Part shown: positions 7,296 to 62,357 of the stretch, piece after piece | Numbering within the stretch: the first letter of the stretch is position 1 | Layout of the letters: each line of letters begins with the position of its first letter | Source: Bradyrhizobium tropiciagri | GTDB lineage: Bacteria > Pseudomonadota > Alphaproteobacteria > Rhizobiales > Xanthobacteraceae | NCBI RefSeq assembly: GCF_001189845.1 | Contig: NZ_LFLZ01000006.1 | Coordinates: forward strand, 62,001 to 126,000 | Direction: 5' to 3' | DNA length: 64,000 bases | Translations under genes and position numbers: made by a program | Notes under the pieces: generated by a model | Told to the model about the DNA's origin: nothing | The model's input: only the letters and a program-made list of their open reading frames with translations | Databases searched by the model: none

Positions 7296-8570
7296 TTACG
7301 GCATGCTCAGCTCGTGGCGGCCGACCACCATCCAGTGCACCTCGTCCGGACCGTCGGCGAAGCGGAGATGGCGGACGTCCTGGTACATTTCGCCGAGCGG
7401 CGACCACTGCGAGATGCCGGTGGCGCCGTGCATCTGGATCGCCTGGTCGATCACCTTGCAAGCCCGCTCGGGGACCATGGCCTTGACCATCGAGACCCAG
7501 ACGCGGGCTTCCTTGTTGCCGAGCACGTCCATCGCCTTGGCGGCCTTCAGCACCATCAGCCGCATCGCCTCGATCTCGCAGCGGGCCTGGGCGATGATCT
7601 GCATGTTGCCGCCGAGATGGGCGATCTTCTTGCCGAAGGCCTCGCGGGTCAGGCCACGCTGCACCATCATGTCGAGCGCCTTCTCGGCCTTGCCGATGGT
7701 GCGCATGCAGTGATGGATGCGGCCCGGGCCGAGGCGGACCTGGGAGATCTCGAAGCCGCGGCCCTCGCCGAGCAGCATGTTCTCCTTCGGCACCTTGCAA
7801 TTGTTGAAGCGCAGATGCATGTGGCCGCGCGGCGCATGATCATGGCCGAACACGTGCATCGGGCCGAGGATCTCGACGCCGGGGGTGTCGATCGGCACCA
7901 GGATCTGCGACTGCTGCTTGCTGGGCGCCGCGTCCGGATTGGTCTTCACCATCACGATCATGATCTTGCAGCGCGGATCGCCGGCGCCGGAGATGTAATA
8001 CTTCTCGCCGTTGATCACCCACTCGTCGCCGACCAGCTTGGCTGTGGTCGAGATGTTCTTGGCGTCGGAGGAGGCGACGTTCGGCTCGGTCATCGCATAG
8101 GCCGAGCGGATCTCGCCGTTGAGCAGCGGCTTCAGCCACTTCTCCTTCTGCGCCTTGGTGCCGACGCGCTCCAGCACTTCCATGTTGCCGGTGTCGGGCG
8201 CCGAGCAGTTCATGGTCTCGGATGCCAGCGGGCTCTTGCCGAGCTCGGCCGCGATATAGGCGTAGTCGAGGTTGTTGAGGCCATCGCCGGTCTCGGCGTC
8301 GGGCAGGAAGAAGTTCCAGAGGCCGACTTCCTTGGCCTTGTCCTTGGCCTTCTGCAGGATCGCGAGCTGCTCGTCGGTGAAGCTCCAGCGGTTGGTCTTC
8401 TTCTCGCCGGCGCGATAGAACTCGACCGACATCGGGTCGACGGTGTCGCGGATGAACTGCTTCACATGGTCGTAGAGCGGGCGGACCTTGTCCGACATCC
8501 GGAGGTCGTTGAGCTCGTCGCCCGGATTGAGCGTGTAGTTCGTGGTGCGCGGCACATAGGCATGTTTCAT
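7296..8570 (-). CDS. Acyl-CoA dehydrogenase family protein, ACAD10/ACAD11 type
   Basis: A 424-residue FAD flavoprotein. Segments AYAMTEPNVASSDAKNI, INGEKYYISGAGDPRCKI, FEISQVRLGPGRIHHCMRT and RFADGPDEVH closely follow the human ACAD10/ACAD11 subfamily rather than short- or medium-chain ACADs. The Glu of DGPDEVH sits where ACADs carry a C-terminal catalytic-region acid. In that subfamily the dehydrogenase works with a kinase domain on 4-hydroxyacyl-CoA, via a 4-phosphoacyl-CoA. A matching kinase-like gene is 3 kb away at 11103 on the other strand. Start ATG 8570. The subfamily call is from remembered sequence, not alignment. Confidence 0.92.
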   Translation of the reverse strand: MKHAYVPRTTNYTLNPGDELNDLRMSDKVRPLYDHVKQFIRDTVDPMSVEFYRAGEKKTNRWSFTDEQLAILQKAKDKAKEVGLWNFFLPDAETGDGLNNLDYAYIAAELGKSPLASETMNCSAPDTGNMEVLERVGTKAQKEKWLKPLLNGEIRSAYAMTEPNVASSDAKNISTTAKLVGDEWVINGEKYYISGAGDPRCKIMIVMVKTNPDAAPSKQQSQILVPIDTPGVEILGPMHVFGHDHAPRGHMHLRFNNCKVPKENMLLGEGRGFEISQVRLGPGRIHHCMRTIGKAEKALDMMVQRGLTREAFGKKIAHLGGNMQIIAQARCEIEAMRLMVLKAAKAMDVLGNKEARVWVSMVKAMVPERACKVIDQAIQMHGATGISQWSPLGEMYQDVRHLRFADGPDEVHWMVVGRHELSMP

Positions 8571-10311: not shown

Positions 10312-11106
10312 ATGCAGTTCAAACACGTCACGCTCGACTTCGACGGATCGGTCGCGATCCTCAAGCTCGACCATCAGGAAGTCATGAATGCGGTCTCGAT
10401 CGACATGCTGGGCGGCCTTGCCGAGGCGCTCGATGCGATCGACGACAAGCGCGACGAGGTGCGCTGCCTGGTGATCACGGGCGCGGGCCGCGCCTTCTGC
10501 ACCGGCGCCAATCTGCAGGGCCGCAACCAGCAGCAGAAGCCTGGCAGGAGCAACGCCGGCGCGGCGCTGGAAACCGCGTTCCATCCGTTCCTGCGCCGAT
10601 TGCGTAAGCTGCACTGTCCGATCGTCACCGCGGTGAACGGTCCGGCCGCCGGCGCCGGCATGAGCTTCGCGCTGATGGGCGACCTGATCCTGTGTGCGCG
10701 CTCGTCCTATTTCCTGCAGGCGTTCCGCCGCATCGGACTGGTGCCGGATTGCGGCTCGACCTGGCTGTTGCCGCGGCTGATCGGCAAGGCGCGCTCGGTC
10801 GAGCTGTCGCTGCTCGGCGAGCGGCTGCCGGCCGAGAAGGCGCTGGAATGGGGCCTCGTCAACCGCGTCTATGACGACGCCGTGCTGATGGAGGAGACCA
10901 TGAAGATGGCGCACGATCTCGCCAACGGCCCGACCGTCGCGCTGTCGCTGATCCGCAAGCTCTACTGGGACAGCCCGGAAAATACCCTCGAGGATCAGCT
11001 CAATCTGGAATTCGAGTCGCAGCGGATCGCGGGCCGCGCCGAGGATTTCAAGGAAGGCGTCACCGCATTCCTCGAGAAGCGGCCGGCGAAGTTCAAGGGC
11101 AAATGA
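10312..11106 (+). CDS. Enoyl-CoA hydratase/isomerase, PaaG-like
   Basis: A 264-residue crotonase-family enzyme. The oxyanion-hole segments are TGAGRAFCTGANL and NGPAAGAGMSFALMGD. The region FRRIGLVPDCGSTWLLPRL resembles PaaG-type isomerases: Asp in VPDCG is the likely acid/base, while the usual hydratase Glu one turn earlier is absent. It may therefore shift a double bond rather than hydrate. The start ATG has AGAGGAAACC just upstream. Its stop overlaps the next gene's ATG (ATGA-type overlap, 11103-11106), so it is translationally coupled to the phosphotransferase. Confidence 0.9.
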   Translation: MQFKHVTLDFDGSVAILKLDHQEVMNAVSIDMLGGLAEALDAIDDKRDEVRCLVITGAGRAFCTGANLQGRNQQQKPGRSNAGAALETAFHPFLRRLRKLHCPIVTAVNGPAAGAGMSFALMGDLILCARSSYFLQAFRRIGLVPDCGSTWLLPRLIGKARSVELSLLGERLPAEKALEWGLVNRVYDDAVLMEETMKMAHDLANGPTVALSLIRKLYWDSPENTLEDQLNLEFESQRIAGRAEDFKEGVTAFLEKRPAKFKGK

Positions 11107-12084
11107 TCGAGACCGAGCTCACGCGCTGCGTCGCCGCGTTTCATCCGGGTGCGACGGGCGTCACCGGCGCCGCCAAGCTCTCCGGCGGCGCCAGCCAGGA
11201 GACCTGGACGTTCGACATCGTGCATCCGGACGGCAATATCGGCGCGATCCTGCGCCGCGCGCCGCCGGGCTACGGTGCCGCGCCCGGCCGCGCCGCCGGG
11301 CTCGATGCCGAGGCCACGCTGATGCAGCTCGCGCATGACGCGGGCCTGCCGTCGCCGATGGTGATGCATGTGCTGACGCCGGACGACGGCCTTGGCCGCG
11401 GCTTCATCATGGCGCGGGTCGAAGGCGAGACCATCGCGCGGAAAATTTTGCGCGACGAGGAATATGCCAAGGCGCGGCCGATCCTCGCCCGCCAGCTCGG
11501 CCGCGTCATCGCCGGCATTCATGGTCTGCCGCAGGCGAAACTGCCGAAGCTGCGTGCCTGACGGCGACCAAGGAGATCGAGGATCTCTCCCGCGAGTATC
11601 ACAGCTTCAACTGGCCGCGGCCGGTGTTCGAGCTGGCGTTGCGCTGGCTGCGCGATCACGATCCCGGTCCGTCGTCCGAGGTGACGCTGGTGCATGGCGA
11701 TTTCCGCATGGCAATCTGATCATCGGCCCCGACGGGGTGCGCGCAGTGCTCGACTGGGAACTCGCGCATACCGGCGATCCGATGGAAGATCTCGGGTGGA
11801 TCTGCGTCAACTCCTGGCGCTTCGGCGAGATCGACAAGCCGGTCGGCGGCTTCGGCACCCGCGAGGATCTGTTCGCGGGCTATGAGGAAGCCGGCCGCAA
11901 GGCCGATCCTGATCGCGTGATGTTCTGGGAAGTGATGGGCACGCTGCGCTGGGGCGTGATGTGCTGCGGCATGATGCAGCGCTTCCGCGCCGGCCCGGAT
12001 CACTCGATGGAGCGTGCGATGATCGGGCGCCGCGCGTCGGAGACCGAGATCGATCTGCTGCGGTTGCTGGCTCCGCGCGCATGA
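11103..12084 (+). pseudogene. Phosphotransferase family (APH-fold, LvaA/ACAD10-11 kinase-like), two frameshifts
   Basis: An aminoglycoside-phosphotransferase-fold kinase of about 327 residues when repaired. Frame 1 (11103-11561) gives the N-lobe through GVTGAAKLSGGASQETWTFD. The middle (about 11558-11710) reads ATKEIEDLSREYHSFNWPRP to VTLVHGDFRM, the catalytic loop. The last frame (to 12084) gives GNLIIGPDGVRAVLDWELAH with the metal-binding Asp. Restoring one C near 11558 (GCC to GCCC) and one G near 11711 (ATGGC to ATGGGC) yields one uninterrupted family-like protein. Such kinases phosphorylate 4-hydroxyacyl-CoA for the ACAD partner. It is followed by a DUF6285 gene, as in lva operons. It is either a real pseudogene or two sequencing errors; I favour errors because the coding signal is otherwise intact. 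Confidence 0.85.
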
Positions 12085-12125
12085 TCCCGAAAAGTGGTGT
12101 CCGGTTTTCGGAATCGATCATGCGC
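12078..12125. repeat. RIME-like repeat, family F copy 1
   Basis: GCGCATGATCCCGAAAAGTGG and CCGGTTTTCGGAATCGATCATGCGC form a long imperfect hairpin of the kind widespread in rhizobia (each arm about 21-25 bases, 12078-12098 and 12101-12125). It overlaps the 3' end of the phosphotransferase gene and supplies its TGA stop at 12082. The second copy is at 44679. Confidence 0.8.
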
Positions 12126-12144
12126 AAAAAAGAAAGCAAATGAC

Positions 12145-58941: not shown

Positions 58942-61483
58942 ATGACCGTGTCGGGTGGCCGGGGCAGCAGTCAAGGCAGCAGTCAGGAGAGCCGGGCCCG
59001 TCCCGGTCAGCGCCGGATGGCGCAATGGACCCGCGACTATGTTCGGCTTCCGGGCATTCCCGACGAATATATCGCCGAGAACGGCGCGCCGCGGCCGGCC
59101 TGGGCCCGTTTCTTCGATGCCTTTGCCGGGCTGTCGCCGGCCGACATCGAGCGCCGCTTCGCCTCAGCTGATCGCCATCTGCGCGAGGCCGGCGTCACCT
59201 ATCGCACGCCCGGCGATACCTCTGACAGGATCTGGCCGCTCAGCCATCTGCCGCTGATCATTGACGCGGCCGACTGGCGGCAGCTCGCCGCTGGCGTCGC
59301 GCAGCGGGCGCAGCTTCTCGAAATGGTGCTGGCCGATCTCTACGGCGAGGGCCGTCTCGTCGCCGACGGTGCCATCCCGGCCGCTGCGATCGCCGGCAGC
59401 AGCGAATATCTGCGCGCGGTCAGCGGCATCAAGCCGCCGGGCGGCCGCTATCTGCATCTCTATGCCGCCGACATCGGCCGCGGGCCTGACGGCCGCTGGT
59501 GGGTGCTCGGCGATCGCACGCAGGCGCCGTCCGGCGCGGGCTATGCGCTGGAAAATCGCCTGGTGCTGTCGCGCGCCTTTTCCAATCTCTACAAGTCGAT
59601 GAATGTCGAGCGCGTCGCGCCGTTCTTCGAAGCGTTCCGCGATTCGCTGCGCGCCAGCGCCGACCGCGACGAGCCGCGGATCGGCCTGCTCACGCCGGGC
59701 GCATTCAGCGAGACCTATTTCGAGCATGCCACGCTCGCGCGCTATCTCGGCTTCCTGCTGGTCGAGGGCGATGATCTCGCGGTCTCCGGCGACCGCGTCC
59801 ACATCCGCACCGTCGCCGGATTGAAGCGGCTCGACGTGCTGCTGCGCCGGGTCGATTCCAACATGCTCGATCCGCTCGAGCTCGATGCGTCGTCCTATCT
59901 GGGCGTGCCCGGTCTCGTCGAAGTGCTGCGCAAGGGCGGCGTCGTGGTCGCCAACATGCCGGGCTCGGGCGCATGGAGGCGAGGGCGCTGCTTGGCTTTC
60001 TGCCCAATCTGTGCCGGCGCTTGCTCTCCGAAGACCTGATGATGCCGCATATCGCGACCTGGTGGTGCGGTCAGAAGTCGGCCCGCGAGCAGGTGCTGTC
60101 ACGGCTCGATGAATTCGCGATCGAAGGCGCCTATGGCCGCGGCGTTGCGGATTTTCCCGGCAACGGGCCGGTGCTGCCGGGTGAGCTCTCGGCGGCGGAC
60201 CGCGACCGCCTGAAGGACGCGATCAGCCATCGCGGCATCGACTATGTCGGACAAGAGCTGGTGCGGCTCTCCACCACGCCGGTGTGGGAGAACGGCCGCA
60301 TCGCGCCGCGTCCGTTCGTGCTGCGGGTGTTCGCGGCGGCGACGCCGAGCGGCTGGACCGTGCTGCCCGGCGGGTTCTGCCGGATCGCCGACCGGGCCGA
60401 TGCGCGCGCGGTGTCGATGGGCGATGGCGCAGTGTCCGCCGACGTCTGGGTGGTGTCCGACAAGGCGGTCGCAACCTCGACCTTGCTGCCGGCGGTCGAC
60501 ACGGTGCGCATCCGCCGCATTGCCGGCGTGCTGCCGAGCCGTGCGGCCGATAATCTGTTTTGGCTCGGCCGCTATCTCGAGCGCGCCGAGGCCACCATTC
60601 GCCTGATCCGCGCGCTGTGCACGCCGCTGCGCGATCCGGCGCGCGCGAATGCGAACGGCAACGCGCCGGCGATGCATTCGGCCGAGCGCATCCAGCGCTT
60701 GCTGGTGACCTGGGGCGCGGCCTCGCAGGCGGCGCGGGCCAATCCCGCCAAGGTCGCGCTTGAAGCGCTGCAGAGCGAGGAGAAGTTCGGCTCGGCGCTC
60801 TCGCTGGTGCGGTCGGCGCAGCGCACTGCGACGTCGCTCCGCGAGCGGCTGTCGCCGGATGCCTGGCAGGTCATCACCGAGATGGCCGACCGCCTCGCGA
60901 TCGAGGTGCATGACGATGACGGTGTCGTCAGCGCCGCCGAGCTGACCTTGCAGGAGCTCGCAAGCTTCGCCGGCCTCGCGCAGGAGAACATGAACCGCGC
61001 CGCCGGCTGGCGCTTCCTCGAGATGGGCCGCCGCGCCGAACGCGCCATCAACACCACGCGCTTCGCCCGCCAGTTCGCCTATGACGAAGCCGGCGACGAG
61101 GACCTCGACGTCCTGCTCACGCTGGTCGACTGCCAGATCACCTATCGCTCGCGCTACCTGGTGCAGCCGCTGCTGACCCCGGTGCGCGATCTCGCGGTGC
61201 TCGATCCCTACAATCCGCGCTCGGTCGCATTCCAGGTCGCGGCGCTGAACGAGCATATCGCCGCGCTGCCGAGCCTGAAGGAGCATGGCCTGATCGAGCG
61301 GCCGCAGCGGCTCGCAGTCGCGGTCGAGGCGATGTTGACGACGGCCGAAGCTTCGAGCCTCGACGTCAAGACGCTGTTCGCGCTGGAGCAGGATCTGCTC
61401 AACCTCGCCGACGCGTCGGGCTGCATTACTTCCCGCACGGACCGAATGCCAGCCGGCCGGAGAAGCTCACGGGGCTGGCGTGA
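58942..61483 (+). pseudogene. Circularly permuted ATP-grasp and alpha-E domain protein, two frameshifts
   Basis: About 847 residues when repaired. The N-terminal frame (58942 to about 59965) gives the CP-ATP-grasp start (DYVRLPGIPDEYIAENGAPR; HLYAADIGRGPDGRWWVLGD; VVVANMPGSG). One lost base near 59970 moves reading to the next frame (MEARALLGFLPNLCRRLLSE; WVVSDKAVATSTLLP). From about residue 532 the alpha-E domain follows (SRAADNLFWLGRYLERAEAT). A second lost base near 61424 (GGCCTG to GGCTG) hides the true end HYFPHGPNASRPEKLTGLA with TGA 61481. The ATP-grasp half should form an amide or peptide bond with ATP; alpha-E is a helical partner. The TGA overlaps the next GTG. Coding signal is otherwise intact, so sequencing error is likely. 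Confidence 0.88.
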
Positions 61484-62357
61484 TCTACGACATCCGCCAC
61501 GTCACGACCTACAGCTATGAGACCCAGGTCAGCTTCGCCCGCTGCTCGCTGCGGCTGGAGCCGATCAGCGGCGACGGGCAGCAGCTGATCTCCCATTCGG
61601 TCGAGATTCGCCCGAGGCCCGCGGAGCGCACCGCGCGGCGCGATTTCTTCGGCACGCTGACCGAGAGCGTCCTGATCGAGAGCGCGCATCGCAGCCTTCG
61701 CATCGATTCCCGCTCGCGGGTCTCCGTGGCGCGGCAGCCGCCGGCGCGTGACGCCGCCAGCCCGCCCTGGGAGAGCGTGCGTGACAATGCGTTCGAGGCG
61801 CTGAGCTCGATGCGGCCTCGCCGGTCGGCTACGTCTTTGCCAGTGCGCTGGTGCCGGTGCTGCGGCCGGTGACGGCCTACGCTTCCGCGAGCTTCTCGCC
61901 TGGCGGCGGTATCCTCACTGGAGCGGCCGATCTGATGCGCCGCATCCGCAGCGACTTCAAATACGATCCCAAGGCGACCGTGATCTCGACGCCGCTTCGC
62001 GACGTGTTCGAGAAGCGCCACGGCGTGTGCCAGGATTTTGCCCATGTGATGATCGCCGGGCTTCGCGGCCTCGGCCTGCCCGCGGCCTATGTCAGCGGCT
62101 ATCTGCGCACCATTCCACCGCCGGGCCAGCCGCGGTTGCAGGGTGCCGACGCAACCCATGCCTGGGTCTCGGTCTGGTGCGGCAGCGAGCTCGGCTGGGT
62201 CGGGTTCGACCCGACCAACGATCTCATGGTCGCCAACGATCACATCATTCTCGCCATCGGCCGCGACTTCGCCGACGTCTCGCCGGTCGACGGCGTCATC
62301 GTCGGCGCGCGCAAGCAGAAGCTTGCCGTCGCGGTCGACGTGCTGCCGGTGGAGTGA
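61480..62357 (+). pseudogene. Transglutaminase-like cysteine protease, one frameshift
   Basis: About 292 residues when repaired. Start GTG 61480 (VIYDIRHVTTYSYETQVSFA), overlapping the upstream stop. The first frame ends at a TGA near 61872. One missing G near 61811 (TCGGAT to TCGAT) restores SSDAASPVGYVFASALVPVL and continues to 62357. Catalytic Cys is about residue 184 in KRHGVCQDFAHVM, His in DATHAWVSVWCG and Asp in GFDPTNDLMV, all intact. Domains: bacterial transglutaminase N-terminus, then the transglutaminase core. It is the third member of the amidoligase cassette and may cleave or transfer the amide made by the ATP-grasp protein. Confidence 0.9.

Follow-up and report, generated by a model that had tools for sequence, protein, structure and literature searches.

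The split kinase-like gene in the Bradyrhizobium tropiciagri draft genome is almost certainly an assembly artefact

Gene content of the locus

The window analysed here is a stretch of 64,000 nucleotides from one contig of the Bradyrhizobium tropiciagri draft genome. On its forward strand lies a kinase-like gene in three pieces. The first piece (11103..11561) encodes 152 aa and then meets a stop. The second (11558..11716), in a frame different from the first, reads from LTATKEIED to LVHGDFR, and the third (11713..12084) begins with NLIIGPDGVRAVLDWE and continues to its stop. In profile searches, pieces 1 and 3 matched the APH family PF01636 at profile positions 4-117 and 179-234, with 45.2 and 36.4 bits, respectively (curated cut-off 23.2), and the 53-aa middle piece alone gave no family match at E 0.001. 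The original prediction had read the three ordered forward-strand frames as one APH-family protein, and both the frames and the matches to the two ends of PF01636 confirmed this.

The intact protein of a relative, Bradyrhizobium sp. CER78 (locus L039), scored 119 bits against PF01636, above the cut-off. It carries the loop HGDFRHGN, of the type HGDxxxxN, followed by the D of a DWE segment, in VLDWELAH; we take this loop and this D to be the catalytic positions of the APH family. In the window copy, the loop is interrupted by the second break.

Upstream of the kinase we found an enoyl-CoA hydratase/isomerase gene (10312..11106, forward strand; NF004635, above cut-off), whose stop overlaps the kinase start. 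Downstream is the gene of a DUF6285 protein (PF19802; 12145..12516, forward strand), the sole match to this family in the genome. The positions of both neighbours were checked in 51 full-length relative loci, each longer than 6,400 bases. The hydratase match stopped at the kinase start in 49 of them and at most 15 nt away in the other two, and the DUF6285 match started ~0.9-1.1 kb past the kinase start in all 51. Counting all 60 relative loci, 58 had a DUF6285 match and 60 a hydratase match, the latter possibly to another hydratase in the loci that were cut.

Intact orthologues and selection

Taken together, the three pieces shared 304-310 of 318 residues (96-97%) with the intact proteins of six relatives, so that the match across three frames is more than chance. 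When piece 1 was searched against 59 other members of the genus, its six closest matches were 92-95% identical. Piece 2 had 48-49 of its 49 residues in common with five of the six relatives, and 46 of 49 with the sixth. The CER78 protein shared 144/150, 49/49 and 117/119 residues with pieces 1, 2 and 3, respectively, and its gene has the same hydratase and DUF6285 neighbours; it differs from the window copy in being a single uninterrupted frame of 327 aa.

An uninterrupted frame of 327-330 aa was present in 55 of the 60 related loci (L039-L098; L009-L038 were excluded, since L010-L038 are not all on the strand of the gene). Of the five exceptions, three are cut by contig ends (L091, L096 and L097) and two are interrupted, one in Bradyrhizobium viridifuturi SEMIA 690T (L053) and one in a metagenome-assembled genome (L093). 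In the latter, the interruption comes after residue 261 of the orthologue. Piece 1 was matched in 55 of 60 genus genomes, the window's own counted. For each of the 54 others, the open frame holding the best match had 330 codons or more, and in the window's genome it had 228.

Against the six relatives, dN/dS was 0.083-0.254 for piece 1, which lies before both breaks, 0-0.244 for piece 2, where 49 codons give little power, and 0.033-0.058 for piece 3. For the whole gene among relatives it was 0.044-0.077 (four comparisons). The SEMIA 690T locus was skipped, its own frame being broken, and the hydratase value of L047 was dropped for a one-codon offset. Piece 3, after both breaks, is under purifying selection. 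Relaxed selection past the breaks was not seen in these six comparisons of piece 3; a very recent loss leaves no such trace.

Position of the two breaks

The original prediction had proposed two single-base losses, and a comparison with close relatives as a check. In an alignment with 23 relatives, the window copy had two clean one-base gaps on the forward strand, between 11555 and 11556 and between 11706 and 11707, and neither was found in any of the 23. Both losses thus stood, a few bases upstream of where they had first been placed; the bases suggested for restoration, a C near 11558 and a G near 11711, differ from those carried by the relatives. The second gap is within the codons of the catalytic loop, as predicted, and the intact loop is the HGDFRHGN of CER78 rather than the predicted HGDFRMGN. 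R-H occupies these codons in 22 of the 23 relatives, the other one (L058) having R-N.

Runs were counted in one relative, and there the first site is not part of any. The two interrupted orthologues have events of their own. In SEMIA 690T one base is missing 9 columns upstream from the window's first gap, and the metagenome-assembled genome carries one additional base, at column 766, with no counterpart in the window or in the other 22 aligned relatives. A local hairpin was considered as a cause of the breaks and rejected: in DNA folding, site 1 did better than its shuffles (z -2.36), and site 2 did not (z 1.72).

Frame breaks elsewhere in the assembly

We surveyed frame breaks over 86 kb around the kinase gene in the window's genome (G000) and in three relatives of the same genus (G004, G010 and G044). 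An ORF from one genome qualified if two others had it at full length, and it was then tested in the remaining genome. A frame break was found in 13 of 261 ORF tests in G000, at five places, and in none of the tests in the relatives (0/244 in G044, 0/258 in G010, 0/259 in G004). At one of the five places (contig C6, ~106.7 kb) the two matches are ~100 nt apart; this one is perhaps no frameshift. In total, 17 tests were incomplete in G000. In four of these the ORF did not continue in any other frame, which was also the case for 4, 4 and 2 tests in the relatives.

Three further one-base losses were located on the forward strand in the stretch 59973..61806, at ~59973, ~61415 and ~61806. A circularly permuted ATP-grasp/alpha-E gene holds two of them, and the transglutaminase-like gene next to it the third; the families were assigned from the intact copies in G010. 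These three losses are likely errors as well.

A wider survey covered contig C6 and 120 kb of contig C8, with 217 conserved ORFs and 244,182 nt. In G000, 24 of these ORFs were spread over two or more frames (13/146 plus 11/71), and another 3 and 5 were incomplete within a single frame. Before filtering, indels of a length not divisible by three amounted to 46 deletions and 9 insertions in G000, 10 of these events coming from one poorly matching ORF (64255-65208). The same count was 15 deletions and 13 insertions in G010, and 11 and 8 in a second relative. The events were then filtered strictly: they had to be 1-2 bases long and to lie 60 columns or more from either end, without a further gap nearby and with five variable columns at most. 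What remained as specific to G000 were 23 deletions of one base and one of two bases, together with two insertions of one base; G010 retained 8 events and the second relative 2. For these two relatives, the values are biased low, because the ORFs were taken from G010 and were near-complete in the second relative. Unlike the wide survey, the 86-kb survey is a fair control.

Of the 23 one-base deletions, a few are perhaps outside genes, since some survey ORFs may start upstream of the true start. Eighteen of them were in G/C runs of at least two, where 29.2% of the bases lie (p 1.6e-6, for a class picked after the list was seen). The deletion rate was one per ~10.2 kb. At this rate, the chance of two breaks in one 982-nt gene is 0.0044. 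Among the 217 ORFs, 1.6 genes with at least two deletions were expected and three were seen, the kinase among them, a mild clustering of deletions in genes.

Three of the genes split in this assembly are essential. The genes rpoB (RNA polymerase beta subunit, TIGR02013), rplB (ribosomal protein L2, TIGR01171) and rplA (ribosomal protein L1, TIGR01169) were found in G000 solely as two pieces in different frames. They are broken by clean single-base deletions on contig C8, at ~22727, 41274 and 16240, respectively. Each had one intact copy in G010 and in G044, and rpoB was also intact in the CER78 genome and in that of L046. A cultured strain without these genes cannot live. As the strain does live, the assembly must hold false single-base losses. 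A further broken ORF, L157:8417-10504, considered as elongation factor G, was left out of the essential genes because its Pfam matches were to an amine-oxidase-like protein and a methyltransferase region.

Sequencing platform

The assembly analysed here has 9,767,314 bases in 189 contigs. Both numbers match the published draft of the legume symbiont B. tropiciagri CNPSo 1112T (PMC4683236), and we infer that the two are the same. That draft was sequenced on an Ion PGM to ~68-fold coverage and assembled with Newbler 2.9 (PMC4683236). The same platform and assembler are given for B. viridifuturi SEMIA 690T in an excerpt of its genome report (PMC4683235).

In SEMIA 690T, rpoB was also split, and the kinase gene had its one-base gap at a different base from the window's breaks; rplB and rplA were intact. 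As the rpoB split appeared near the same model position in both genomes, a shared error hotspot was considered. It was rejected, because the alignment placed the two sites 126 columns apart, so that errors of one kind would have struck different bases in the two genomes. Over 70 ORFs of the rpoB region, private clean gap columns numbered 9 in G000, 6 in SEMIA 690T, 1 in G010 and 0 in G004. One further gap column was common to G000 and SEMIA 690T.

Single bases make up most of the high-frequency PGM indels in the excerpted portion of Bragg et al. 2013 (PMC3623719); the commonest are A/T insertions or C/G deletions, and just 29% of the high-frequency indels are in homopolymers. In the same portion, strand-asymmetric indels are described as mainly C and G deletions, 82% of them in homopolymers of two to three, and insertions outnumber deletions across PGM reads overall. 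The losses found here resemble these indels in being single bases, with C/G deletions common, and, for the strand-asymmetric ones, in occurring mainly in runs of two to three. They differ in that the published indels come from reads compared with references and include many A/T insertions, whereas nearly all of ours are deletions, from a comparison of an assembly with its relatives. Going by deletion type, the strand-asymmetric class as described there would be the best fit.

Origin of the two breaks

The two breaks in the kinase gene are, with high confidence, Ion PGM/Newbler consensus errors in an ordinary and most likely intact APH-family gene. Short runs, mostly of C or G, would have been under-called by one base, leaving false frame breaks in the draft. 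The gene for this APH-family small-molecule kinase would then be intact in the living CNPSo 1112T. We judge it so because the draft lost single bases in many genes, indispensable ones included; for the two particular kinase bases, the error is something that we infer. The original prediction had left the choice between reads that lost bases and an enzyme that is dead here. The former has strong support from the single-base losses in the sole copies of rpoB, rplB and rplA, by the platform and by the similar state of a second Ion PGM genome. A dead enzyme is unsupported, with essential genes similarly split and piece 3 under purifying selection.

Several observations weigh against sequencing errors. 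Two breaks in one gene of this length are improbable at the measured rate, and no run covers the first site in the relative chosen for counting runs. The published share of high-frequency PGM indels in homopolymers is low, and insertions exceed deletions in the reads described in that excerpt. SEMIA 690T, from the same platform, has intact rplB and rplA. The dN/dS of piece 1 exceeds that of the whole gene, although this piece comes before both breaks.

A true, very recent pseudogene is improbable. Here the strain would have lost the kinase of a conserved hydratase-kinase-DUF6285 module by two single-base deletions, too recently for relaxed selection to appear. The occurrence of two breaks in one gene is in its favour. 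In addition, five of the 60 genus genomes, one of them 89% complete, had no match to piece 1, so the kinase gene may be dispensable. However, rpoB, rplB and rplA are split in the same assembly by losses of the same type, and the sequencing platform accounts for the pattern. The piece after both breaks is under purifying selection, and would drift in an old pseudogene.

A mixed case, with one break true and the other an error, is very unlikely. It would suit the first site, which is not part of a run in the relative where runs were counted, but both losses are single-base, like 21 other clean ones in the assembly. We give hardly any credence to programmed frameshifting or a functional split gene, for which the independent break 9 columns off in B. 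viridifuturi could speak, as 55 of 60 relative loci have the single frame and the B. viridifuturi genome is likewise an Ion PGM genome with a split rpoB.

The split in this ordinary conserved gene is thus almost certainly an artefact of assembly and not a true feature, and the breaks have no bearing on the loss of a pathway. If the rate in the 217 ORFs holds elsewhere, the draft would by extrapolation contain ~960 single-base losses, and counts of pseudogenes, split genes and novel short proteins from it are therefore unreliable. The draft of SEMIA 690T, also from Ion PGM and Newbler, has similar breaks.

Potential function of the kinase

The intact kinase orthologue matched the ACAD11 kinase domain weakly (E 2e-13, residues 42-235), and the best solved structure for it was 3dxp (E 5e-16). 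On contig C8, the genome has far closer matches (9.6e-114 and 4.6e-69), the second of them that of a kinase to the ACAD11 kinase domain. The window kinase and the C8 kinase were identical in 60 of 233 aligned residues. The window kinase had been proposed as the central enzyme of the 4-hydroxyacyl route. This is unproven, because its ACAD11 match is weak and the C8 kinase is far closer. Since a dehydrogenase encoded close by on the minus strand (7296-8570) is clearly related to ACAD11 (E 1e-116), a role of the window kinase near 4-hydroxyacyl-CoA breakdown is plausible from sequence comparison.

With the ACAD10/ACAD11 kinase domain and LvaA, as presented in excerpts of PMC11342911 and PMC12440821, the window kinase shares the kinase superfamily by sequence; it differs from ACAD10/ACAD11 in the weakness of its match and in having a closer relative of that domain on C8. 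In the excerpted account of PMC9399607, the 4-hydroxyacyl-CoA kinase LvaA works with a partner, LvaB, whereas the window kinase has the small DUF6285 protein downstream. Judging from gene order, the kinase and the DUF6285 protein may form a functional unit. The word DUF6285 was absent from the papers searched. At ~12077-12134 of the window, in the gap that separates the DUF6285 gene from the kinase stop, lies a short dispersed intergenic repeat. It has at least dozens of matches, of roughly 76-91% identity; most genomes searched in the genus carry it, as does one from another genus.
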